Origin: Isoetes taiwanensis
Lineage: Eukaryota; Streptophyta; Lycopodiopsida; Isoetales; Isoetaceae
Assembly (NCBI GenBank): GCA_021234155.1
Contig: JAJEKV010000002.1
Span: 36,495,107-36,559,106, forward strand
Length of the DNA: 64,000 bases
Reading direction: 5' to 3'
The position numbers and the translations under genes were made by a program. The notes beneath the pieces are model-generated. The model saw only the letters and a list, made by a program, of their open reading frames with translations, searched no databases and was not told the DNA's origin. This document shows, one piece after another, positions 39,906-61,281 of the stretch. Position 1 is the first letter of the stretch; every line of letters starts with the position of its first letter.

Positions 39906-40910
39906 TCAAGATCCGAAAAGTGATAAACACGTTGGATTCGGATTGCAAGGAGCCGTAAGGGTCAAGCAAAGCAACGGCATACCGTCCCGATCAAGAGTCA
40001 TTTCTCCCCAAGGATCGATATTCGGGTAGGATGACGTGAGGCGCACTCGCAGTGGAGCCTGAACTTGATAAATATTCTGAGCTTCTTCAGAATCTGTGTC
40101 TGAGAGAGAGGGTTCCGCATGTTCAACAGAAATGATCCTGCCTGTTTGCAAGTCCATGGTGGCATTGAGGTGACCATCAGTGATGACTAACTGGTCCGTG
40201 GCCCAGTAATGGATACTCTTTTGGCCCTGGCGGAGAAAAGGTCTCACCGACCAACATTTCATAGTCACCGGATCTTCGCCAGCTTTCCAAACTCCAAATT
40301 CCATGGGGAAGCGGAGATCACCGATGTTGATGTGAAGAAGAGGTGTGACGCCTTGAGGTCGCGTGATATGGCCATTAGCCAACTTGATGTCATATGGGGC
40401 ACGAAAGAGTTGTGTGATGCCCATTTGTTTGCGGAGTTTATCCGTGATGAGATTGACTGCGCTACCTCCATCTATTTGAACATGGTTGACTTGCTGATTA
40501 CCCACCGTGGCATGGACCGTGGGTGTAGAGGTAGCTACGTACCCAACTAAAACAGTTGGGAGTGGTAACTGGTCCTTGAGAGCAGGATAGAGTTTCAAAA
40601 TGGTTGCCAAGCTTAAAGGAATTTTGATCTTGGCTAGCTCCTCTTGGAGTTCTAGAGGCACATGAGAAAAAGGATCTGCTGGTTCCACTGGTGCTGGAGT
40701 GCGTGGTAGTGAAGCAGCAACTTCTTTGAGTAAGTCAACCTCTGCAGCAATATTGGGATACGTCTGAGAGCGTGGAGGTTGAGATGTGGAAGGTGTATCT
40801 TGTCTTTGTTGAGCTCTGGTGGTGGCATGAACATTTGCCAATGTGCGGCCTTCAGCAGCTTGCATGAGGTTCAAAATGCTTTGGCGAACTTTTGGCATGA
40901 CATGTGGCAT
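39906..40910 (-). CDS. Gag C-terminal/aspartic protease segment of Ty3 element B, 334 codons
   Basis: The longest intact frame of the element. The N-terminal 100 residues are low-complexity linker. The retropepsin signature VQIDGGSAVNLI lies around residue 150, with D as the catalytic residue, followed by a flap-like region (LANGHITRPQGVTPLLHINI). Homologous segment of copy A is broken and has G for the D. The frame probably continues from gag and into RT in the active element. Confidence 0.8.
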   Translation of the reverse strand: MPHVMPKVRQSILNLMQAAEGRTLANVHATTRAQQRQDTPSTSQPPRSQTYPNIAAEVDLLKEVAASLPRTPAPVEPADPFSHVPLELQEELAKIKIPLSLATILKLYPALKDQLPLPTVLVGYVATSTPTVHATVGNQQVNHVQIDGGSAVNLITDKLRKQMGITQLFRAPYDIKLANGHITRPQGVTPLLHINIGDLRFPMEFGVWKAGEDPVTMKCWSVRPFLRQGQKSIHYWATDQLVITDGHLNATMDLQTGRIISVEHAEPSLSDTDSEEAQNIYQVQAPLRVRLTSSYPNIDPWGEMTLDRDGMPLLCLTLTAPCNPNPTCLSLFGS

Positions 40911-40959
40911 GAGCTTCTCAAGTCGTGCAAAGTGAACCTTTTTTCGTCCTCATGAGGAA

Positions 40960-45280: not shown

Positions 45281-46594
45281 TTAGAGTAGCTCCTTGTAGA
45301 TGACGTTCACAGTACTTCTGGTTATGTTCTTTGGGGAGAGGAGTATTAGCAGGTCTTGTCTGTTTCGTACACGCGTAAAGGCCGTATATAACTGGCCATG
45401 TGCAAAGACATTTGTGCGCAGATCAATGACCACTCGATCCAATGTTAAACCCTGACAGCTATTAAACGTGGTTGAATACGATAGTCGGAGTGGTAATTGT
45501 CGTCGATGAATAGTCCATGGGCGGTTTTCTGGTTGATAGAAGAAATCTGTTCTGGAAATCGGGTACATGTTCCCTTCTGGATCACCTAAAACCCTCACCA
45601 TTACAAACTTCTCATGCATCGATTCAATCACAACTCTAGCATTCTTCACAAGTCCCTTCTCCATGTCTAATCGTTTCATCACATGACATATCGCCCCCAC
45701 CTTAAGTGTGAGTTCATGATTGGGAATCCCAGAGTGTGTGAAATTATTCAAGAAATCCGATGTTGCGTAGGGATGGTCATGAATAAGTTGGTCTTGTTCG
45801 GTTATATGATCATGGCTGTAATACAACTTATCCTGGTTAGGAACCCTGCTTAAGACCCGACCATTGAAATCGTCAACGTGCCTGTTAATTGGAGCGAGGG
45901 AAACTCGTTTGTCACATTCGACTGGATCGTGGAGGATATTTGTTGGATAGAGGAATTCAACTGTATCTGCAATGTTTGTAGTTATGTTGAATAAATCCAA
46001 CGATACCGTAGTTTGTTCCCAGTTCTCCCCGATATTGTCAACAAAATGCATGAGCTCTGGATCTCCTGCATTTCGTATTGGTTGATGCAACCTCAACACG
46101 CGAAAGACTTTCCATAACGACGATGATTTTATAGATGCACTGAATGCTGCAATTCTTCCCCCACCCTTTACTACAGGTGCGACTTGCCTAAAATCACCAG
46201 CAGCTATGAAATGTTTTCCACCAAAAGGAAGATTGTTTCCACACAGTCGTTGCAACACATGATTTACGCTTTCTATTACGGCCTTATTGGCCATTGGAAA
46301 CTCATCCCAGATAATGACCTTAGCCGCAGCGATGAGTTGTGCTGCTCCTGAATCGGGGTCCAACATCGAATGAAGCCCAGCATTATTTTCAATTACAGGG
46401 ATCTGAAATAGGGAATGCGCCGTTCGCCCGCCTGCATATAGTCGGGCTGCCAGTGCCGTTGTACCACATGGAAGGACTATGCCTCTGTTGCTGCGTATGA
46501 GAAAGCATATGCATTTCAAAACAAATGTTTTCCCTGTGCCAGCTTTTCCATCTACAAATATAGGGTCATTGCTTAGAGGAGATTCCAACCATTG
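45281..46594 (-). CDS. Helitron E helicase (PIF1-type), C-terminal part
   Basis: An open frame of 435 codons carries Walker A VDGKAGTGKT, Walker B IIWDEFPMAN, GDFRQVAPVV, and the C-terminal FNSCQGLTLDRVVIDL .. YTAFTRVRNRQDLL motifs of superfamily 1B helicases. It ends VIYKELL, TAA. The frame continues on the far side of the 10.1-kb transposon: removing 46595-56721 plus one CCATTG gives uninterrupted codons across the junction. Unwinding of the displaced strand during rolling-circle transposition is its expected role. Confidence 0.9.
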   Translation of the reverse strand, partial: QWLESPLSNDPIFVDGKAGTGKTFVLKCICFLIRSNRGIVLPCGTTALAARLYAGGRTAHSLFQIPVIENNAGLHSMLDPDSGAAQLIAAAKVIIWDEFPMANKAVIESVNHVLQRLCGNNLPFGGKHFIAAGDFRQVAPVVKGGGRIAAFSASIKSSSLWKVFRVLRLHQPIRNAGDPELMHFVDNIGENWEQTTVSLDLFNITTNIADTVEFLYPTNILHDPVECDKRVSLAPINRHVDDFNGRVLSRVPNQDKLYYSHDHITEQDQLIHDHPYATSDFLNNFTHSGIPNHELTLKVGAICHVMKRLDMEKGLVKNARVVIESMHEKFVMVRVLGDPEGNMYPISRTDFFYQPENRPWTIHRRQLPLRLSYSTTFNSCQGLTLDRVVIDLRTNVFAHGQLYTAFTRVRNRQDLLILLSPKNITRSTVNVIYKELL

Positions 46595-46699
46595 GGTTAA
46601 AGCATGGTATAGTGGCTCAATATGTTAGTTTTGCAACATCAAATAATAGATCCAAAATAGTGGGAATTTTAGTCCAAAAATAGCTCCAAGAACTTCGAC

Positions 46700-49600
46700 C
46701 AACTCGAATGGCGAGAATGACGGAATTTTGGGGGGAACTCGTTTGAAGCACCCAAGAGCTTAGCCTTTACCGCATCTCCAGAACCAGATGTTCACACACA
46801 GACGCCTCCATCAAGAACACGATTTGGGGGCTTGCAATTGTGGCGTCAATTAAACAGTTACAACAGGATTTCGAATTTTTCAAGGTCGAATTTGCACTGC
46901 ATGTATTGACAGGGTGACAGGGAAGCTACCATTTGAAGATTCGAAGTTATTGAGTAAGATTGGTTATGCACATAGACTATTACAATTTTTTCTTTAGCCT
47001 TGGCATTCGATTTGCTTCACCCCTTTATTCTAGCTTTGGTGGAACCTTTTAAATCCACTCTTTGGAGTCGGATTTGTGAAGACCTGAGAGAATTTTTTGG
47101 TTCCCAGATAAGATAAATTTTAGATATGAGCAGCAAAGCCATCTAACTGTGGCCAAGAATTTCATATTAAAACTTTTCAAAGGTTGAGCAATATGAAAAA
47201 AGTGGCTGCCATTTAGAATACATTTGTTTTGTTCTGAAATTCTTATTAAAGAAAGCATTGTTGATTCTGACATTATTAAAGTCTCAACGCATGTATATGT
47301 AAATGGTCGTGTGTTTCTTGTTATTTGCTTTAGCGGTGCTTTTGCTTTTATTGAAGCTAACGGTGTAAGTGCACATTTGCGTGGAAGTTTTGCACATTTG
47401 TAAGTCCGCAAAGCTTGCATTTGTATCATTTTTGGTCAGGCCCTAATATTAGTCAATGACTTGCTACATATCAAAGAAAGATAATGATCACGACATAAAA
47501 GAGTTTAGAACACTCATTTTCCCAAAGAAGTCTTTCTTTTTATTATTATAGTCGGTTTGTGGTTTGTAATTGTGCTTTTCATTTTTATTTTCGGGTTCAT
47601 GGAAGAAGATAAGCGAGCGTGACCGACAAAGAGAGGGGATCACCTATAAGGATTTGTATAAATCTGAGGAGAAGGTCGATGACATTGAGAGATCACGGAA
47701 GATGTGGGGTGAGAAAGTGAAGGGTAGAGCTTGTTACTGTATACAAGCTTCTACAAGAGAAAAGAAAGAAGGAGTTCATGGATCTATACAAGAAAATATT
47801 CAACAGAGATAAAGTTTTAGGCGGGCAGGTTCCAGGTGCTTTAGCGATGGCTTTTGTGTTACATTGCAATGGGCAGACGATAGATTGGCTTAGCTTTTAT
47901 GAGCATGCATCTTCAGCCTCAAGAACTAAAAGAATGAGTCATAGTGCTGAAGATGTCGTTACAATTGATGAAGAGGAGGAGAATGACGTACCTAAAGTCA
48001 TATCGTCTCCAAGAGCACCCAGCTCCTATGTAACATCTAACACTAAGCGAGAGCAACTTCCAAAGACAATCCACAAGGTAATTTAGATGTATCTTTCTTG
48101 TTTGATGAGTGTATAGATAAGTTGGCAGTTTGCCATAGTTCATAGTTTGTGTCTGTGTCGTTTGCATACGTTTAAATTTCTGTTGTTTATTTTGAGCTCG
48201 TGTTCATGTTAGTTACATTTGACATTTGAGTGGCAGTGTTAGTTTTAGTTAGTGAAGTCTTATTTTTAGTTAGTGTTAGAAGTTGTTTATATGCAGTAAT
48301 AGTTGCAGTGGCAGTTAGAACTGGTGGAGTTCTAGTTTGGTGTTCAATTTGCAACTTTGGCGATTCTGATTCGAGTTGAAACTACTTTGAGTTACTGATT
48401 CGAATGTCGATTCTGCAGTGTAGTGTCACCGCGATTCGAGTTGCAACTCTTGTTAGAGTTATAGCTCGAATGTCGATTCTTGCGATGTAGTTCTGATTCG
48501 AATGTTTTTGTTGGTAGTAGTTGCAGGTTGGTGGTAGTTTCAGGTTTGTTTTAGTTTCAGTTAGCTATTAGTTGCGGTTTCAACTCAAACAATGCTCATT
48601 TGTTGTTGCGGTTTGTATATACAATTTTGTCTAATTAGATGCATGTTACAAAGAATGTCAACGGGTTTGAAAGAATGGATTTCGGGGATAGAAGATAAGA
48701 TTAGCAGATTGGCATTGGAAAGCCGTCCAATGAATGACGATGCAATGACTTAACCGACAAAATCAAAGGCCTTGGCGATAAACAAAGCACACTTGGAGGG
48801 TGACATTGGCGGATATGAAGCATTAATTGCAACCTTACCCACTATAGCAAGGGTTGGCATTGAGGTCGTCATTGACCCTCTGAAAAAAGAACTTGGCGAG
48901 ATTACACCATGTCATAAAGGATGCAAGTAGCGACACATTACTTTCAGAAATTTCTAGGGATGGCACATTGGATGAGCTGAAAAAGTTAAAATCTTGTCTT
49001 AAAAAGAATGTTACTTGCTAGACAAACTATGAGTCGATCATTTGATTTGGATCCTTCACGCCACGAGGGAGCAATAGTTATGAGTATCTGAAGGATAGTA
49101 TTGAATTGAACGAAGCGTGCCCATTTTGTCACGGATCATTGAAAACAGATGGCATGCTTCTACCTACCATTGTTGCAATGCATGCATGCGTATCATCTCC
49201 CTTGTTGTCTTGTGCATTTCGTAGTTGAACATTATCACTCTTTTGCCTCATTTTCTTTTAACTATTTAACCATGTATGTCTCTTGTGTAGTGTATCGGAA
49301 GAATGTTTGCGAGATCCATTGTGAGCACAAGATATCAATGACATGGATATCTCTACTTGGTCCGAATCGGACGAAAAAGAGTGCAAATGAACACAATGAT
49401 AGAGTCTTGTGATGGTTGGTTGTACATTTATGATAAGTTTGAAATGATCATACCTTATATTGAGGAATGTTTATGCATGTGGAGCAGATAGGAATGGAGG
49501 ATTTGCAATGGCTGCCTTTACTCCAACATCCATGTCCTCTGCCAAGGAAAACAAAAGTTCTTTGCCAAGACGTTTGAGTGCTGATTTGACCGTTGAAGAA

Positions 49601-50110
49601 GAACACAAAAAAGATCGCGTTAGTCATTACTGAAAATAATGTCAAAGAAGGTAATGTAATCTTTGTATGAGTTGAGGTTATATGCATGTTTAAAATGACA
49701 TGCGTTTATGACAGTAGGTGCAGGTTATGAAATTGTTACTGCAGGTTTTGATTCGAACACCAAGGTTAAAGAAGTTTTAGCTGATATTAAGAGTGAAGCA
49801 TGTTTTGAAGTTGAGAATGACATTTATCTTGAAGAGACAGAAGATTTGGCCACAATGTCACTTCCACCAGGTAGCTTATAGAAAAATGGAAAGGTCAATA
49901 AGTGAGTTCTTAGTCCTTACAATATTTAAAGCGTTTGCAGATAAAGAACATATGCCGGAGAGGCCATATCATGGACAAGAACTAAGTGATACTGCATCAT
50001 CACCTAGTATGAAAAGCAAAGTTGATCACAGTCCATGTAAGGAGAAAAGAGGGACTAACCAGGCCTTAAGCAGTCAATTTGAGAAGAAGAATGTTGAGTA
50101 CCACTCGTGA
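46700..50110 (+). pseudogene. 5' exons of the plus-strand gene in the TIR transposon (RING-like)
   Basis: Open, exon-like plus-strand segments follow one another. 47590-47810 is charged coiled coil. 47760-48077 is EKRKKEFMDLYKKIF .. DVVTIDEEEEND, a SUMO-interaction-like motif, donor at 48078. 48642-48930 is LKEWISGIEDKISRLALESR .. GGYEALIATLPTIARVGIEV, with one stop. 49000-49215 has EACPFCHG and then, one frame over, CMHAYHLPCC, which together look like a RING-type C..C-C-H..H..C cluster. 49750-50110 is polar. Frame changes between parts are either introns or damage. I do not recognise the family. It leads into the phosphatase-like exon at 50261. Confidence 0.4.
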
Positions 50111-50260
50111 AAAGAATTATGCGTTGAAGGAGCGAGTATAGGCAGCCCGAAACAAATAAGTCAATCCTTGAGATCAGAGGAATCATATTCACCTGGTAAC
50201 TTAGAAATTCCATCTCTTAACTTCCACTTAGTACGTGTTTTTAACATTTAAATTCTACAG

Positions 50261-51003
50261 GAAGTACAAGAGAGCAGATGGCTACTATAAAGAAAAGTAA
50301 ACGTGGCGGTGACATACATAGCAGTCCCTCTATGTTGCGAATCAATAAGCGGCTTAAACTGCCTATGAAGCTTTTAATTTTTGAGCTTGAAGGAGTTTTG
50401 TGCAAGCTGTTTGAGAAAGGGGAACTATTGCCCAGCAGCCTTCAAGATGATGCAGAGGCAAAGCATCTCAATCTCTCAAAGATATTGGTTTTGCGTCCAA
50501 GAGCATTCGAGTTTTTGGAATGGTGCGTGGAGCACTTCAGGGTTGCTATCTGGACAACATTGACGAGTGTGGCTGCAAATTTAATCCTGAAGCATACCTT
50601 TTCAAGGAGTCTTAGAGACAAGTTGCTATTTACTTGGCACTCAGATGTGTGCACAAACACATCATTTAAAGTGAGCAAAAAGCCTATTCTGCTGAAAGAT
50701 CTCAACAAGGTCTACCACGACTCTAGATACAAGGGAACATGGGCTGAACACAACACAGTTTTGATTGATGACATGTTATACCGCGGCTACAAGAATACTG
50801 CGGGCACAGTAGTGACCCCAAACAGTTATCAGCCATCTCGCCGTGAAGGTAATTTTCTCTTGGAGCATTTGAAACCTTTCCTTGCGGGGCTGTTGGAAGT
50901 TGAGAATGTGAAAGACTACGTGCTTGAGAAGAAACTATCCAATCTGTTGGATAAAGAATCTAAGCAAGCAATGGATATCCTGAAAAAGTTTAAGTACTCT
51001 TGA
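50261..51003 (+). CDS. FCP1-type (NIF/HAD) phosphatase-like domain in the TIR transposon
   Basis: The exon starts after acceptor TTCTACAG (50260) and is open to TGA after KKFKYS. Residues after MATIKKSKRG.. form an FCP1 homology domain: MKLLIFELEGVL (motif I), FRVAIWTTLTSVAANLIL (motif II), KKPILLKDLNKVY (motif III lysine), HNTVLIDDMLYRGYKN (motif IV DD), then NSYQPSRREGNFLLEHLKPF. In active members motif I is DxDxT/V; here both aspartates are glutamate, so catalysis is doubtful. Working enzymes dephosphorylate RNA polymerase II tails or related proteins. Its place in a transposon suggests capture from the host. Confidence 0.75.
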
Positions 51004-51220
51004 TGTACCTGATGCCAGATTTGCATTTAACATTTTGGATAATGAAGTTTGATTATGGTTGGTGATTGATCAAAGATCATGTTGTTGCCATCTTGATAAT
51101 GTAAATTGATGTACTTTTTGAACTGCATTTGTTTTTGATGTTCAACATTGTCTCTGCTCTGATTTGGAAGTGCATCAGTTGTAACTAGTTTGGTTTTTGT
51201 ATTTCCTTTGACAGTATTAA

Positions 51221-51476
51221 GTAGGACTTGCAGAAAAAGATGATTCACATAGTAAATACATTAATAGATCTGGAGAAAAGAAATTACACAGGTTTACGGT
51301 CAAAAAATAAATTACACAAAGTTTACGTCAGATATTAAGGTCTTGTCCAAGTAGGACTTGCAGAAAAAGATGATTCACATAGTAAATACATTAATAGATC
51401 TGGAGAAAAGAAATTACACAGTTTCTGGTCAAAAGAAATTACACAAAGTTTCTGTCATATATTAAGGTCTTGTCCA
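51221..51476. repeat. 130-bp tandem repeat in the TIR transposon
   Basis: GTAGGACTTGCAGAAAAAGA.. begins at 51221 and again at 51351, with nearly identical units. It lies between the 3' ends of the two convergent genes, just after the FCP1-like stop codon. Confidence 0.85.
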
Positions 51477-51773
51477 AGGCTTGTCGAAGCCTTGAGTCCT
51501 ATACTTTTGTGTTAATCTGTTTGTTGTAGAAGAGGATTAGAGCCAGGAACTGAGGTCTTTTCCAAAGAGGTTATCCCATATCTCGTCCAAATAGCAAAAA
51601 ACTGTCTCTGTTAACAAACCTGCAAAAACCAAACAGATACTATTGCATCTCAAAGGAGGCAATACTGTCAATGTATGTCTCATCAGGAATGGTAGGAATC
51701 TTTGGATCATCAGAGTTTATGGCAGTATTGAACAGTTGGTTATAGGATTGAGTGAACAGATAGGTAGTGAATA

Positions 51774-51975
51774 AGTTCACAGTATTAACTAGCAATGAGA
51801 TTAGCTATAGTTTCACGAAAATTTTGCAAAAGGATAGCAATGAGATTAGCTATAGTTTCACGGAAATTTGGCAAAGTTCACAGTATTAACTAGCAATGAG
51901 ATTAGCTATAGTTTCACGAAAATTTTGCAAAAGGATAGTAATGAGATTAGCTATAGTTTCACGGAAATTTGGCAA
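51774..51975. repeat. ~101-bp tandem repeat with internal half-repeats
   Basis: GTTCACAGTATTAACTAGCA.. starts near 51774 and 51874. Each unit contains GAGATTAGCTATAGTTTCAC twice, so the motif occurs four times. Sited in the intergenic spacer between the convergent genes of the transposon. Confidence 0.85.
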
Positions 51976-52149
51976 AAGGAATGGCTGCTCATGGATTCCA
52001 GGGTGCCAGGGGTCCATGAACAACCAATCCAACCTAAATTTGTGCATAGGTCCAAGACAACTGTGCATCAAGAAGGCATCCAATGCCCCCACATTAACCC
52101 ATTTACTAGAAATAATTTTTTAATTGCTTATATGTGAAGCCCTTTCATT

Positions 52150-52790
52150 TGGGTTAGGTTTGTGGGATATACGCCAGCAATAACCATTGGTTTTTTTTTC
52201 TAGGGTTCACGGTTCACTTCCTTCCAGATCTGCCCTAAACCTGAAGTCGCCAGCAAGAGTGGTACATGTATGAAGTGATGGGTCCTTCCTATGCATGCGA
52301 ATTCTACTAGGAGCAGAAAAGATGCTTTTTATAAATATATTTGCCTAATTTGGTTGCATGGCCTTTTTGGGTTGGCCTTTTTTTATCTGTATCAGATGCT
52401 ATATTTAGAGCGGGACTTTATGTATGCAATCTGATTTGTTCCAATCTGTTTGTAATATAAGTGTTCATGTTTTGTATCAGGAAGTTTTGTCTTAGAGCCC
52501 TTCCAAATCAAAACAGTGATAATACAAATACACATCCAATCTGATATTTCCAAACCAGAGCAGGGATATTTGTTTTATTCAAGAAAAAGAATAATTACAA
52601 TAGAAGTCCAAAATTTGACTTCAAAATTAATCGTTTGTTGATGATGCAAAGAAAAACATCAACAACATAATAACAGCATACATCATAGCTGCACACAATA
52701 TAAATCAGACCCTTCGATCTGTTTGTTTCACTTAAAGCTTCAAGTACAGGAACTGCAACACTAACTACATTCCAACTGTAAACTGAATAT
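52150..52790. other. 3' spacer between convergent genes of the TIR transposon
   Basis: No coding signal. AT-rich, with no further repeat that I can see. Probably 3' UTR of the minus-strand gene; several AATAAA-like strings occur on both strands. Confidence 0.4.
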
Positions 52791-55700
52791 TTAATCCTCT
52801 TCGTCTGATAGCACATCAGGGAGATTGTCTAAAATCTTTTCACTGTCAGCTTCACAAAGTTTGTAAACAACCTGGTTTCCTTTCAGCCTATGTTTTGCTT
52901 GTGCCATATCAAGTCTTATTGAGCAAACTTGGGTAGCATAAACAATGCCTTTTGGCTCGTTAGAACATAAAGTGTAACCTGTAAGCGATCTTGGGACTTT
53001 TTTGTAGTAAGTTCCCTCTAAAACTTCTTCCCCTTTATAAAACCAATTCCCATAGGCTTCAAAATCTGTCTGAACCACATATTTCTCTTTCGTACACAAT
53101 AATATCCAAAATAAAGTGTCCTCATCATTGTCCTTTGGAGCGGCGACAAATGGGTTATCTCCTTCCCTTACCAAATCACTCAACACACAGTTTTGCATCT
53201 CCGGAAAATAGAGCTCTTTCGGATCTGCGCCTTCATTCATTCATCAGCTATAGCCTTGCTTGGCTCAACAACTACTGAGCTCCCAATCATCTACATATTC
53301 CTTGTTCAGACACTTCTCCCATTGTGCATCAAGGCAATATGCACAAAAACAAGATAAACGCCTTATATGCAATTGCGTAGGAGATGCTAAGTTAAATGCA
53401 TGCACAGAATGAATGTTCCTCGTGTCCTCCACAGTCTCAGCACCCCATGCATTCTTTCTATCCACATTTTTCACTTCCCAAAACGACCTTCTTCTTGGTT
53501 TCTTGTTCACACTTGAAGATGGAGCAACAAAGTGAAATTCTCCCCGGCTATATTCACAATATCAGCGACACATTCTACTTTTTACGATGTGATCTCTTCA
53601 TCATCTCCCTTAGCCAATTGTTTCAACTCTGCAGCCTTCCCATCATGCTCCCTTTGCGTGATTGGAGCCGAAAAAATTCCACATCATTTCAATGAGTGTC
53701 TCATGAGAATACCTTCCTACAAAATAGAATGGCGGGCAGCTTTGAATTGGGATGCAGCTCCATCCGAAAATACCCAATGCTTTTTGGATGTATGCCCTCG
53801 TTCTTTCATGAATTCGTGATGCATCATAAATGCATGCTGGACCGAATAGTGTGTCATGTTTTGTATCATCAGATATATAGTAATGGGTGTCCTTGATGAC
53901 ATCACCTGATGAAGGCTCCAAATAGTATGTGATTTGTACAAGAATGGTGACCTGTTTGCTTGTCCAGTACGCAGATTGAACTTGATCCCCGCGAATCGAT
54001 TGTGAAGTTCTCTGCAAAGTCTACTACAGATACAATAACCCCAAAAAAGGAGGTTGTCTAACATATCCCTAAACTGCATCGCTTGCCATTTGTGCCTAAA
54101 GCTGTGCACTGGAAACTTTGCCAATCTGTCAATCAATGTGTGCATAAGATCTTTTGGTTTTGTTTTCCTCCACAGACGCTGGAGTACTTTCTTGGGTTTC
54201 CCCCACTTATCCTTACCTCCTTCCTCATAATCCCAAGCTCCCAACTCACAAATCCTTCTTCTGGACAACTCTAGAGGACACACAATTGTAGCCGAGACAC
54301 ACCACACTGCTCACAATCTCCATAAATGCAATCTTTCTTGTGGAATTCTTGATTTTCTTCTTTAGGACACAATATGGATTGCCAGAGCTGAGTGGTTGAC
54401 TTATACTTCTTAGTCTTGGCAGCACATAGTTGGCCTGTAGATTGGCATACCTCACATGCACAGGTGCAACATTCTACATGCATATTTCTAAGTGAATTTA
54501 AGCCATCCAAGAGCATCTGCAGTCTCACATGATGAATGCAACAACATGAATTGAACTGTTTCAATTTCATTACATACCATGGTTTTAGTTTTTCAAATGC
54601 TCTTTGGCCAATTGTAATTTGTGGGTGCTGCTCTTTGAATTTAATGAACATCTCTGACTGCAAAAAACATAATCAAGAAATATGTGAGTAACAAGTCAAA
54701 TAACAAGTACACATGAACATGTAACTCTACTCTAACTGCAACTATAAACTGCCACTGTAACTCACTATGACAACAAAAACACAAACTACAAACATACAAC
54801 CTGCAACTAATGGTCATAACTGCAACACCAACTGTAACTGCAACAAACATAATCACAAACTGCAACCACTGACATAACTCGAACACTTGCTGAAACACTA
54901 ACTGTAGTCTAACTATTTAACATGCTCTCTGCAACACAAACTGAAACTATGTAATGGAGCTCAAACACTAAGCGCAACATCAATGCGGACTAACAACCTA
55001 AGTTGAATCTCAACCACCAACTGCGCAGCAAAGCAGCTTCGAAATGTTTAAGTTGCATATTAAGAACTGTACTTCAAACCTTATTTGCAACACCAACTAC
55101 ATCTACATAAGCTGCAACAACAACTACATCTACAAATGATGCACATATCACCAAAAATCAACAAAAGATAATTTGCACTGAGTATCCTCCGGATAATGTG
55201 TAGCATGTCCCTCCTTCACATTTCTTTCCGGTCTTACGAACTTCACATCCTTTGCATTAGGGGAAACTCTTGTATTTGTGTCCCAAAAACTTTGAACCAG
55301 TTCAATGACATATTTGTCAATTGAATCAAACCTCCGTGACCTTCTAAAATATACCCATCCCTCCTTATTAAACTCCACTTCTTTATGTTTTTCCTTGGTC
55401 GCTGCAATACATCTAGGATGGACTCCCAAAACTTTTCCCAAACTTCTCTTGCTAATAGCTTGATTTAAAGTCTCCTTCCCAATAGACATGGCAAGTACAC
55501 TTCTTCTTGCAGCCATAGAATCTAAACTACTAGATCCTTTTATAGTCCGAATAGATTCTCGAATGTTCTCAATCACATGGCTTTTGACTTCTCAATCCTT
55601 CAAGTGATCAGCGGTGACATCCTTCATTTCTTTGTGCTTCAAGAAATCATTTAGCACTTCCCTTTTATCTTCCAAATCCATTTGACAAACTTGCCTTTTG

Positions 55701-55943
55701 AATGAGAACACTAGATTAGACACAATCTTTTGTTTACTCACTTGATTGGCATAAGCTTTGGACTCCAAAGATCAAAGCATTCTTCTCTTCTTTTTTTCTT
55801 TTCTTTGTTTCCTCTTCTTTAGAGTCTCCTGCTCTCTTGTCCTCTTCCTCTTTCCCATAAAGTTTCTTTGCTCCACTTCTTCCATCTTGATTGCTCGCAA
55901 ACGCCACCTTCGCACCTATAATAGTCACTGCTTACAAAATTAA
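52791..55943 (-). pseudogene. Transposase-like gene of the TIR transposon
   Basis: Minus-strand segments in order. 55928-55734: basic/acidic N terminus. 55733-55148: helical, with SMAARRSVLAMSIGKETLNQ and VFSFKRQV upstream. Exon from 54659 (acceptor TTTTTGCAG): MFIKFKEQHPQITIGQRAFEKL, then a Cys/His cluster C-x-C..C-x2-C..C..CEQCG. 54307-53540: DFAEN, a YISDDTKHDTLF stretch, FSDGAASQFKAARH, EMMWNFFGSNHAKG and, after a one-base shift, HDGKAAELKQ. 53510-53265: FWEVKNVDRKNAWGAETVE..LSCFCAYCLD. 53240-52791: acidic C terminus. The three acidic/His motifs look like an RNase H-fold transposase core. I have seen a similar arrangement in uncharacterised proteins of cnidarians and fish. Four or more frame breaks are present, some possibly introns. 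Confidence 0.55.
54700..55140 (-). other. Intron-like stretch with repeated GTTGCAGTT motifs
   Basis: Read on the minus strand, GTTGCAGTT, GTTACAGTT, AGTTGCAGGTTG and variants recur many times between two coding segments. A similar stretch in the mirror position and mirror orientation is at 48230-48600, also about 1.6-2.0 kb from its transposon end. It may be an intron; it may also contain protein-binding sites. Confidence 0.4.
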
Positions 55944-56721
55944 CGAGAAGTAAGAAAGTATCATATAGAAAAGGAATTACATAGCGTAATACTTTAAGTC
56001 TTCAATATGCCAAAAAAAAAATCAGAATTCACCACATTAAACCGGATATATTTTTCATGCATGGCTCTTGAATGCATGCCGGATATATTTTTCTGGATGA
56101 TTACAAGAAGGAAACCAAATCTACATGCAAATCAAACACAAAACAAAGAGAGCACTACAATCAATTTTAATTGCTAGAATGAGAATAATCTGTGATTAAA
56201 AGCAAACTTTGAATGGCAACATACCCAAATTTTAGTCTTCAAACGAAATTTCAAGAGGCCTTACAATCTTGAAATTCGAATTTGATCTTCTGCAAATAAT
56301 AAGAGACCCGAAAAAATTTAAGGAAACCAAAGGTACATGCAAATAAAAAACAAAGCAAAGTCATGTCTATTGAAATCAAATTACAATGAAAGAAATCTTG
56401 GATTCAAAGCAAAGCAACAGACCCGAAATTTTGTCTTCGAAAGAAAGTATGCAAAAAGGCTCTACATTCTTGTAAGGCCGAATTTGATCTTCTGTCAGAC
56501 CCAAATCTTAGGAGAAAGTCCATACATTCTTCTTCATCAGTGATTAGTGATGGTGCACCGAAAATTCTCCCCCAAATTTTGAATTCTCTCGGGCGGGCGG
56601 TGGTGGTTGAAGCAAGGAACGAAAATAGGTAAGTGGCTAACTACCTTTCGAACTAATTTTCGAACTAATTAGGGGGGGACAGGGGGACAACTAAAATAAG
56701 ACACTATACCATGCTTTAACC

Positions 56722-57690
56722 CCATTGTTTTATGGAATGAAATATTTCTAGCTGGTTATCATTCATCATACTTGACATTTGAAGCATAGATTCTAGGTAC
56801 GATGCGTGGTCAGAAAATTTTGTTAGCTCGTGCATCACATCTCTGCCAATACGATGTTGCAATTGCAGCCCAAACGCCATGATGTTAGTCCCATGTTGAA
56901 CGCGAATATTATTGACTAAGTGCAGAGATTCATTGAAAGCAATTACATCATCATTAGGATATTCATCTAATAAGTCAAGGCTCATAGGCACCTGAAACTT
57001 GGTCCATAAATCGACTGCTGGTCCCTGATCAAGTATTAACATGGCAAAAAGAAAACGTAGCTGCGTAGGACTCAACGATAGAGAAGTTGCCTCTTCCATA
57101 ACTAGCATTGCTTCATTGTGTGCCGCAAGCAAACCCCCCCGCTTCTGCAGCCTGTTGATATGTCTCATATGTTTGATCATTAACCCTCTTTAATTCATCC
57201 CACGTCCTGGCCGGACGGTGCAACAAAATTTGTCTTAAGTAGAACGCCTCGCCGACCTTAGGTAATAGTAAACGTATTCTACATACTAATGGTTGTCTAA
57301 TCCTTTTCCTCACAATGCTTCGTGTAATTCCTTCTTGCTCTTGTTCTACATATGATCCAGATTCAGATGCTAATGATGGGTTAAAGGGTGTTAACGTATA
57401 TTGTTCGTAGTATTGAATATAAGTCAGCGTATCAAATACATGATCAGGCGGTCGTAAGAAGTATCGATACAACAATGATCTTGTATTTGGTCGCAACAGA
57501 TGCAAAGGCAGACATTTAACAGCAGGGGACTTATTCGTTATGTCGTATGACATTATTCTCCAAGACGCCTCCAGGCCGAAAGGTATCGTGCCTTTAAGTA
57601 CTCACGTATCTCATCTCTAGGAACCGATGCAGTAATATGCGTCTGCGGAATGTTTTCAGAGCAATGACCTGTATTGAGATTTGTATGCGC
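56722..57690 (-). CDS. Helitron E Rep-helicase linker region
   Basis: Two overlapping frames, 57553-57113 and 57180-56716, join if one G is removed from a run of seven near 57137, turning AGGFAC into AGGLLAAH. Another one-base loss near 57575 separates LEASWRIMSYDI from RYLSA upstream. The protein part contains the conserved Helitron segment EASWRIMSYDITNKSPAVK and later QLRFLFAMLILDQGPAVDLW, and ends IFHSIKQW at the transposon. Otherwise it is free of stops over 970 bases. Confidence 0.82.
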
Positions 57691-57938
57691 CCCGGGGGAT
57701 TCACATAGTGTAGGCCGTATATACCATGTGAATGGACGATAAGGGGTTTTTTTTAACCTAAAGCGTACGAATACGTACGGGAAGGGGTTCTTTAGACCTT
57801 AAAAAATCCAATCTCTAGTGATGTATTTCATACGGAAAGGGGTTTTTTAGACCTTAAAAAAAGCGTATACGAAGGGGTTTTTTATGACCCCTTCCTCGCA
57901 CATGGCGTATCCCTTATACACTAAGTGATATCCCCGGG
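57691..57938. mobile_element. 248-bp MITE with 8-bp target duplication in Helitron E
   Basis: Ends CCCGGGGGATTCACATAGTG and, inverted, CCCGGGGATATCACTTAGTG give TIRs of about 40 imperfect bases. GTATGCGC flanks both sides (57683-57690, 57939-57946). Removing the MITE and one GTATGCGC joins VNDAHT to NLNTGHCSENIPQ in frame. The 8-bp duplication suggests hAT-type. The body has three copies of GAAGGGGTT(C/T)TTTAGACCTTA or close variants. Confidence 0.85.
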
Positions 57939-60742
57939 GTATGCGCATCATTCACTTGTGTACCTCGTGTGATCGGAACTCTCTGCTGATCAAGGCCCGA
58001 TGACGTCTCCGTGTTTGTATGCCTCTCTTGAGTAATTTGAAATCTTGCAGTATCAAAGCCCTTATATATGTAACCATAGAGATAAGAGAAGACATGCACA
58101 GTGGATGCGATGTCAACCATAATATGGCAATCGAGTTCATGAAGCAAGAATGCATTATATGGAACTACCCACGCGTCATCTACACTCCTCCTCCTATATT
58201 GCACGTACCCTTTCGAGTCAAGGTGCGTCGTTGGATTAACTAGCTTTGGATAGTTATAGCAGCAAGAAGCACCACGTGGGGAGCATCTATTAGAATGTCT
58301 ATGCATCATAAATTTTTGGACCTGCGCCCGAATAATCGGATCACTTGGTAGTTCTGCAGATATAATTTCATCAACACATTCTATTGGTATATCTGGTTCG
58401 GTACGTAACACAAGATGCGAATGCGGTAATCCTCGCTTCTGAAACTCTACTACTGTTATTATATAAGATACCCGCTGAAAGAATTTATGCAACAATTCTT
58501 TTAGGCGTTGCAACCTTCCATGAAAACATCGAACAACAGTGATAGGTATATCAGAAGCATTTTGTCCAGGCCCAAGGGCAGCCCTTATTTCTGGCCAATC
58601 CGTGTTAGTCGTCATCGTAACGAATAGAGTTGGCCGGCCTTTTGACCTAGACAATGCCAACGCATCAGCAACCTGTACAGAGCACCACCTTTGACAACCC
58701 AAGAACGACAAAGGAAGGATAACATCATTTTGATTGTCATTTTCTCGCTCAGAGTAATCTTCATCGTATTGAATCCTCCTATTCCTGAAGGCGGAAGTCC
58801 TAAAGTAATTTAGTCGTGCGTCCTCAACCCTTGAATACATATCAACGAGATACTCCCCACATAAGCGGCCTAGCTGAAGGAACCTATCCTCATGCAAGGT
58901 TCTTGCTCTGTACCATTGTAGTTGCGTGAGACCATATTCATTCTTAAGACCCCACCCTGGTGTACCATGCGGAAATAGTAGTGGATATTGCAAAGGTTCA
59001 TACATGGGATCAAGAATATTCATAAAAGTCGGTTCACCCTCATTTCGAGCCCAAAAGCCCGCAACTCGGGATGCAATATCAGCCGTATTGCTGACCTCTG
59101 CAATTGCCGCTATTTCATCGCTCCCAATTATTCCCTCAACTGTAATATATGCCGAAGGCATATGCACACTCCCCATAGTTCGAAGGTGTCTAATAAATGG
59201 ATTTGCTCGATCGAGAATTGAACCAATGGTTGCAACCCACTGAAAGGGCACACCCTGAAGTCCTGCTTGCACATAACGTTGCGAATCGTCATATATATAC
59301 CAGTGTATGGGATTTCCAGTATCTCTTGTTGGAAGCAACCGATGATACGTACGACCCGTGATCGTCACTGATGAAGGGAAGTCCAAGTTGACGAACTCCC
59401 CATCAACTCCAAGCACGCTGAAGCAAAATAGTCTATTTATCTTTCTACATACTCCATTAAAACCCGGCATGTTGTATAGATTAACCAATGCATCAGGCAA
59501 GGAAGGTAACTGCGGGAGCAACCACTTTCCCTTATTACAACAAAACCCATTTTGTTCAACATTCAACAATGGAATATTGCAATACGTGCATCGTTTATTC
59601 CATGTGCACATCGTGAACGTTCGATTAATTGCTGTTCTCATATGTTGTGCACGAGCCTGCCAATGTGTAAGCACCCTTGACACTGAGTCCTCCTCCATAC
59701 TACCTGCTTGCATTTCAATATGGCTAGATGTCGTGCCTGCAGCAGATATATTTGTATGACGTCCTCTGCTTATTAGACGTATACGATCCCTTTCTTCATC
59801 AGGCAAGTTCGCATAACGCTCTCTTCGTCTATGGCGTACTTCATCTCTGTCCCCCTCATTTAACCTTGCATACCATCCTGCTTTGTACGTGTTACGATCG
59901 CTCGCATTTGCCGATGAGTCATTGACCAACTCGTTTTCATTGGTCGTTAACACGTTTAGAGTTGGAACAGTTCTATTTGTTCCATCTCCATGTATGTTTA
60001 CCATTCCAGGTTGAGGCTGTCCTGCCTGATGTCCACTCCTAGCACGAGATGCATCTCGAGCAGCTTCTCGTAAATTTCTATATCGCTCTATTTGCCTACG
60101 TCGCACCTCATCCCTGCCTTCCTCACTCAAACTAGCATACCATCCTGATCCATACGTACTCTGTTGGCCTTCAACTACTGGTGACCCCTCGTGTAACTCG
60201 CTTTCAAATGCAGGTAGGACATCCAAATTTGAAACAGATTCACTTATCCTAATTCCAGCTGCAAAGGAGGATTCACGTAAATTTGCATACCGTTCCCTTC
60301 GCTTACGACGCACTTCCTCCCGATCTTCCTCACTCAATCTAGCATACCAGTTCGAGTTACAGGTATTCTTCTCACCTGCAACTACCGGTGACCCCTCGAG
60401 TAGTCCGCTTTCACTAGCAGACGGAACATTTGCACTTACAGCAAATTCGTTTACCGTAAGTCCATTTGTATGCAAAGGAGCTCCATCTAAGTCGTTAGTC
60501 CTCCCAGGTTGACGTTGTCTTGGTCGTCGTCTCGCCCTCTCACGTACCACCTCTCGAGCAGCATCACTCAAGCTTGCATGCCGCTCTCGCTCCCGCTGTT
60601 GACTCCTCTCCCTATAATCTATTTCTGGTAGAGCACGAGGGGTCTCTCCTATCTGCCCAGCTAGATGCCATCTAGCACGATCTCTTGCCATTGCTCGCAA
60701 ATTTACATACCGTCCTATCCTTCTAGATGAGTTATCATCCAT
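57939..60742 (-). CDS. Helitron E replication initiator (HUH Rep), N-terminal part
   Basis: From ATG 60742 (MDDNSSRRIGRYVN) the frame is open for over 930 codons. The N-terminal third holds Arg-rich repeats of the type WYARLSEEDR.EVRRxxxERYANL, at least three times. Next come a C-x5-C-x2-C..CC zinc finger (about codons 378-405), a Helitron_like_N domain, HUH motif RGLPHSHLVL, CCYNYPKLVNP, and the tyrosine pair YLYGYIYKGFD near the end. Rep nicks and ligates DNA at Helitron ends. The last codons before the stop lie in the MITE. Splicing upstream is likely; the annotated ATG is the first in frame after the last plausible acceptor. Confidence 0.92.
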
Positions 60743-61281
60743 ATTCAATGCAAATTCTATTGCGACGCGCAATGATGTAGAAGAAGACTTACATGTCTGT
60801 CTACTCTGCGAATACCTTCCATTCGGATAGATAGCAATGAGATTGGGAATCTGTAATTAGGATCAAAGGAATTGCATTATTAAGGTAGCTCATCATGCAT
60901 TACATGACACAACCATCTAGTACATACATGGCATCTAGATATCACATCCATCAGCTCACAACATATACCTTGTATAATGAGTTTATTGTGATGGAATTAT
61001 ATTGATAGTATATTACGCGTAAATAAAAAAAATACATATATCTAAATCCGCTTAAATACGCATGGTTACCTAATTATCATTTGCCGGGGAACAAGCACAC
61101 TTGGAGAGCGCTGGCATAATCCATAATTCATCCCACATTATATACCTTACGTAACATGTTTATTATAACGAAAATATATTCAGAGCATATTACGACTCAC
61201 AAGAAAAAAGTATCCTATAATATGTCCACGGCAGTGGCAGTATCATCTAGTTATCATAAGCACATAACATGATCAAGTCAT

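Follow-up and report, generated by a model that had tools for sequence, protein, structure and literature searches.

Introduction

Sola elements, a poorly studied group, are described as having a DDD transposase, a 4-bp target-site duplication and terminal inverted repeats (TIRs) of variable length; they can be large and occur in moss and animals (PMC10741241) as well as in ferns (PMC6786969, PMC6890710). The word Sola does not occur in the main text of the Isoetes taiwanensis genome paper (PMC8566536). We analysed a 64,000-nucleotide stretch of the genome of the quillwort Isoetes taiwanensis (contig JAJEKV010000002.1; hereafter the window) in which positions 46594-56722 hold a 10,129-bp TIR transposon, a shortened copy with two convergent genes. 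We conclude, with a probability of about 0.65, that this element is moved by a DDD (DD40D) transposase acting with a 4-bp stagger and that it belongs to the Sola superfamily; the assignment is drawn from described Sola traits rather than from Sola protein sequences.

Other described systems share single features with the element. Dada is likewise a large, mostly intron-containing DDE element with zinc-finger motifs; its triad is D567/D635/E811, and its described families lack TIRs, target small RNA genes and duplicate 6-7 bp (PMC3706591). IS3EU/GingerRoot and Ginger are similar in their integrase-like core and 4-6 bp duplications. IS3EU has TA..TA termini and usually a 6-bp duplication (PMC10045372); the clubmoss Selaginella lepidophylla is the species from which GingerRoot is known. 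Ginger has TG..CA termini (PMC10741241), TIRs of 40-270 bp and similarity to integrases (rve). Kolobok and piggyBac duplicate TTAA (PMC9587614), and the duplications of Zator, Merlin, Tc1/mariner and Zisupton are 3, 8, 2 (TA) and 8 bp, respectively (PMC10045372, PMC12730594).

Results

Element ends and insertion site

The element, with termini GGGTTAAAG...CTTTAACCC spanning 46594-56722, carries inverted repeats that match exactly in the window copy. Within the window alone, a 20-bp TIR with duplicated CCATTG and a 21-bp TIR (GGGTTAAAGCATGGTATAGTG) with duplicated CATT fit equally well. Because the other copies in the host genome decide between these two readings, we place the left TIR at 46594-46614 (plus strand) and the right TIR at 56702-56722 (minus strand), flanked by CATT at 46590-46593 and 56723-56726 as read directly. 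GGG was the start of the element at all eight of the first loci, the window included, and the 6-bp duplication CCATTG with a 20-bp TIR, which had been the initial reading, was rejected by the sibling copies. A reading made earlier from the sequence only had described exact 20-bp TIRs and a 4-6 bp duplication; the exactness and the 4-bp duplication hold, whereas the TIR length is corrected to 21 bp and no copy supports a duplication of 5 bp or longer.

The insertion, flanked by its inverted repeats, sits inside a Helitron. To mimic excision in silico, flanking stretches of 193 and 174 bases were joined and one CATT was dropped; the helicase frame (...NDNQLEIFHSIKQWLESPLSNDPIFVDGKAGTGKTF...) is then open over the 367 bases, in agreement with the sequence-only reading that the helicase codons are restored. 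The host Helitron matches PIF1 (Pfam) in an open reading frame (ORF) at 45281-46624 and Helitron_like_N (Pfam) in an ORF at 57914-60856, both on the minus strand; the latter is a 980-aa stop-to-stop ORF, and the PIF1 helicase is the part interrupted by the transposon.

Copies in the host genome

We searched the host genome for further loci of the element, scoring the best 40 of 74 candidates, and obtained at least 40 matches including the window. Of 39 left ends besides that of the window, 32 carry an exact 21-bp TIR and 38 one with at most one mismatch. For 20 copies the right end was sought at a distance of 9.3-10.9 kb from the left one, for 14 of those 20 also at 9.9-18 kb, and for the remaining 19 in the 12.1-13.3 kb stretch only; a right end was located in these stretches for 12 of the 39, with an exact 4-bp duplication in 11 of the 12 and a longer one in none. 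An exact-pattern scan of the genome returned 79 TIR matches (42 + 37), a count that exceeds chance, since the reversed pattern used as a control returned 0. Ten more opposite-facing TIR pairs, drawn from these matches, yielded eight exact 4-bp duplications (seven unambiguous, one TTTT) and two pairs without one. Pooled, an exact duplication of 4 bp flanks 19/22 further two-ended copies, and one of 5 bp or more flanks none. The duplicated sequences differ (AACT, ACAC, AATG, ACCA, AGTA, CTCA, AAGT, TCCC, TGTA, GTAG and AATA in the first set of pairs), and the copies lie in differing flanking DNA. Further copies with the same TIRs, proposed beforehand as a check on the mobility of the element, are therefore present in the host.

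The lengths of the 22 other two-ended copies, a distribution biased toward the 12-13 kb class by the search ranges, were 12.2-13.3 kb in 11 cases, 10.5-11.5 kb in three and 15.6-28.9 kb in eight. The window copy was collinear with five siblings by blastn and lacks 2.5-3 kb near 51,756 that are present in four of the five (C1042, C935, C27 and C1037); alignment of the element to the five siblings places the approximate junction at 51750-51770. Short direct repeats, read directly, lie near this junction at 51220-51460 and 51785-51970, and repeated segments are found in the same region of the siblings too. Five copies, all among the ten later pairs, are 21.6-23.0 kb long (C907, C919, C1018, C1065 and C1089). 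The extra DNA was compared for one of them, the 21.6-kb C919 copy, whose 9.9-18 kb stretch had nothing in common with the 28.9-kb copy, the 18.9-kb copy, two other copies or C27, so that we read it as a probable later insertion rather than part of a master form of about 22 kb. The C1103 sibling (locus L064) contains an internal 3.4-kb tandem amplification of an element segment.

Substitution divergence between the window copy and the five siblings was 2.9-4.6%, which makes the element moderately recent where the sequence-only reading had called it apparently recent. The same comparisons contained 105-206 indel events per 8.7-10.3 kb aligned, 68-77% of them 1-bp events. Indels inside runs of at least three numbered 24/104, 19/77, 35/125, 42/158 and 27/117 in the five siblings and were thus not strongly tied to homopolymers. 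The likely source assembly was built from Nanopore data with Illumina polishing, plus Bionano (PMC8566536), and the frameshifts may be assembly errors.

A predicted DDD transposase on the minus strand

The transposase gene occupies the minus strand. Exon 1 (55178-55885) encodes the N-terminal, putative DNA-binding part and has two in-frame stops in the window copy; in two siblings, C1037 and C1081, it is open. Exon 2 (52791-54657) encodes a conserved Cys cluster, an RNase H core, a Cys-rich part and a C-terminal beta domain, and is frame-broken, with nine frame changes and one stop on direct reading. The frame jump, together with a comparable division into two exons in the host paralogue L107, points to an intron at approximately 54658-55177. 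The motifs DFAEN, FSDGAASQFK and FFGSNHAKG, among those that the sequence-only reading had named for this gene, are present, spread over three frames and not in one intact reading frame.

Predicted models showed an integrase-like RNase H core with no insertion domain and conserved D/D/D residues, D240/D323/D364, at the canonical RNase H positions, with DD40D spacing. These models agree with the proposal of an RNase H-fold transposase, and we identify the protein as such an enzyme of the DDD (DD40D) type with a predicted catalytic role. As modelled, the core resembles retroviral integrases, IstA/TnsB and Mos1, with its acids on the same strands and helix and likewise no insertion domain; it differs from them in sequence (7-13% identity in the rows listed), in having Asp as third acid at spacing 40, in its own Cys-rich and C-terminal parts and in the 4-bp duplication of its element. 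In mariner the third catalytic acid is also Asp.

Foldseek with the first model gave no usable match in PDB and BFVD, and a PDB sequence search with the profile returned only Cas12e (E 0.18). No transposase family was among the Pfam matches listed for the read-through protein, for ten members, for the open paralogue L107 or, at E<=0.1, for 35 members; for 25 members, no transposase was among the matches listed (best 25 of 30 families). NCBIfam gave nothing relevant for five proteins. Sola and Academ appeared in no structure match list, which says nothing either way. The relatives that we found, which form a widespread but unnamed protein family, are uncharacterised proteins of animals (Holothuria, Saccostrea and Mytilus among them) and plants, the animal ones as the sequence-only reading had anticipated; these presumably resemble Sola-2 of repeat libraries. 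No relative was detected in genome_contigs or viral_contigs by scans resting on two short motifs each, and these scans lend no support to a viral or bacterial home.

Two relatives, P0052 and P0053, bear on gene content: one forms a fusion with a Ulp1 (C48) protease domain, while the other, from Labeo rohita, is annotated as a Sentrin-specific protease. Some members of the transposase family may thus be accompanied by Ulp1 genes. In P0001 (Klebsormidium nitens KFL_005820050) the gene model couples leucine-rich repeats to the transposase, and is either mis-fused or a host-transposase fusion.

Open paralogues in the host

A host-genome search with the relative P0003, scoring the best 69 of 12,982 first-look candidates, many of which may be false, gave at least 70 matches; 18 of 70 rows were free of internal stops. 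In paralogue L107 (C623), exon 2 is open over 627 aa and shares 44% identity with the C1081 core in 368 aligned columns; a 221-aa ORF of this paralogue, likewise open, contains THYLEIPQ and is homologous to exon 1 of the window copy. An example of an open paralogue lies at C623:442894-444597. The number of first-look candidates and several open ORFs of about 600-640 aa suggest that transposases of this type are a large and perhaps overlooked part of the host genome.

An FCP1-like gene on the plus strand

The second gene (47599-51003, plus strand) probably contains introns and is broken in the window copy; in the C1037 (9.8 Mb) sibling it has an N-terminal start, MEEDK, followed by an open frame. 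An open exon of 252 aa at 50245-51003 carries a NIF/FCP1 phosphatase-like domain that passed the Pfam cut-off (PF03031, E 1.1e-9). FCP1-type phosphatases carry a DxDx motif. Direct reading gave ELEG at this position in the window, C27 and C1081 copies, with the other three siblings frame-broken there, and this replacement suggests that phosphatase activity has been lost. The RING-like part claimed for this gene fared less well than the FCP1-like one: its Cys/His-rich pieces CPFC and CMHAYHLPC, read directly at 49118-49205 on the plus strand, lie in two frames and had no Pfam match as tested, so a RING domain is possible and unproven. No homologue at E<=0.01 was found for the 742-aa read-through of the gene among 7,993 scored candidates, and the FCP1 ORF had no real match in PDB. 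The gene is probably an accessory gene, and it may have originated from a captured FCP1-like phosphatase.

Elsewhere in the window, a 347-aa ORF at 39906-40949 (minus strand) weakly matches an aspartyl protease (E 0.0051, below the cut-off) and is perhaps a retroelement remnant.

Discussion

The locus carries, as the sequence-only reading proposed, a large, plant-hosted TIR transposon with two genes, but both genes of the window copy are broken. Because of this, and because 2.5-3 kb are missing, the copy as assembled is non-autonomous; it would be mobile, if at all, only in trans with the help of an intact relative. We propose that exon 1 and the Cys cluster of an intact transposase would recognise and bind the 21-bp TIRs, that DDD catalysis would cleave the ends and insert them into target DNA at positions staggered by 4 bp, and that host repair would then create the duplication. 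Excision is probably of the cut-and-paste type, although neither a natural empty site nor a product of excision was observed.

Both Sola hallmarks open to testing are present in this family: a 4-bp target-site duplication in the window and in 19/22 other copies, and a DDD triad conserved in the predicted models. Large size, a variable TIR and occurrence in moss, ferns and animals are further likenesses. This weakens the original view that the element fits no nameable superfamily, since a DDD transposase and a 4-bp duplication in non-flowering plants are what is given for Sola (PMC10741241). Sola was among the superfamilies that the sequence-only reading itself had proposed to check. The other systems introduced above are ruled out as follows: Dada by the DD40D spacing, the 21-bp TIR and the insertion inside a Helitron; IS3EU by the GGG..CCC termini and 4-bp duplication; Ginger by GGG..CCC, the 21-bp TIR and the absence of rve among the Pfam matches listed; Kolobok and piggyBac because the 4-bp duplications vary and none is TTAA; and Zator, Merlin, Tc1/mariner and Zisupton by the 4-bp duplication in 19/22 copies.

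Several observations weigh against a Sola transposon of this kind. Three of the 22 two-ended copies have no target duplication, the 4-bp duplication was measured for one family only, and no TIRs were found in 9 kb around the open paralogue L107. The best Foldseek row for the first model was NurA, an unconvincing match (E 1.6e-4, TM 0.09-0.12). The comparison with Sola was one of published traits, and we know of no two-gene Sola element with an FCP1-like protein. Such a second gene is a difference from Sola, being unmentioned in the available part of its description, and Sola is also reported from bacteria (both PMC10741241), while genome_contigs gave no relative in a scan resting on two short motifs.

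The failure of several known superfamilies on duplication, termini or triad spacing could instead mean that the element represents an undescribed DDE/D TIR superfamily of streptophytes and animals, unrelated to Sola sequences, whose members would combine a compact, integrase-like DD40D core with duplications of 4 bp. The database searches are in keeping with this, in that no Pfam transposase family was among the matches listed for the proteins scanned, NCBIfam was silent and the profile found only Cas12e in PDB. A literature search reaching few subscription papers found no description of this transposon family. Pfam may, however, not include Sola, which makes its silence uninformative on this point, and the two Sola hallmarks are there. 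We regard an undescribed superfamily as a tentative, rather unlikely explanation, and hold equally tentatively that its quillwort representatives studied here would carry an FCP1-like domain in a second gene. Much less probable is a DUF7869-related lineage within another named superfamily such as Academ. PF25273 matches the RNase H region over residues 386-561 of P0028 (E 0.042) and 337-441 of P0078 (E 0.019), which could mean another home than Sola and makes a distant relation to DUF7869 possible; yet the scores, 13.9 and 15.0 bits, fall short of the 26 bits that the family requires, no other scanned member had the family among its matches listed, and the word DUF7869 was not found in the literature searched. 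A one-off rearrangement instead of a mobile unit, for which nothing speaks beyond gene decay in the window copy, is already refuted by the 79 exact TIR matches, the left ends at no fewer than 39 other sites, the 4-bp duplications in 19/22 copies and the differing flanks.

Now that the ends are known exactly, the 4-bp duplication is settled and open paralogues have been located in a lycophyte, both the activity of the element and its class, be it Sola or a new one, can be tested directly. A transposon with a seemingly catalytically altered FCP1-like protein would be an unusual case of an accessory gene. An undescribed superfamily, if true, would be the source of many unrecognised copies in one lycophyte genome and of many 'uncharacterized' animal proteins. 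The structural and conservation evidence indicates that these 'uncharacterized' proteins of animals and plants, which no Pfam family was seen to catch, are transposases.
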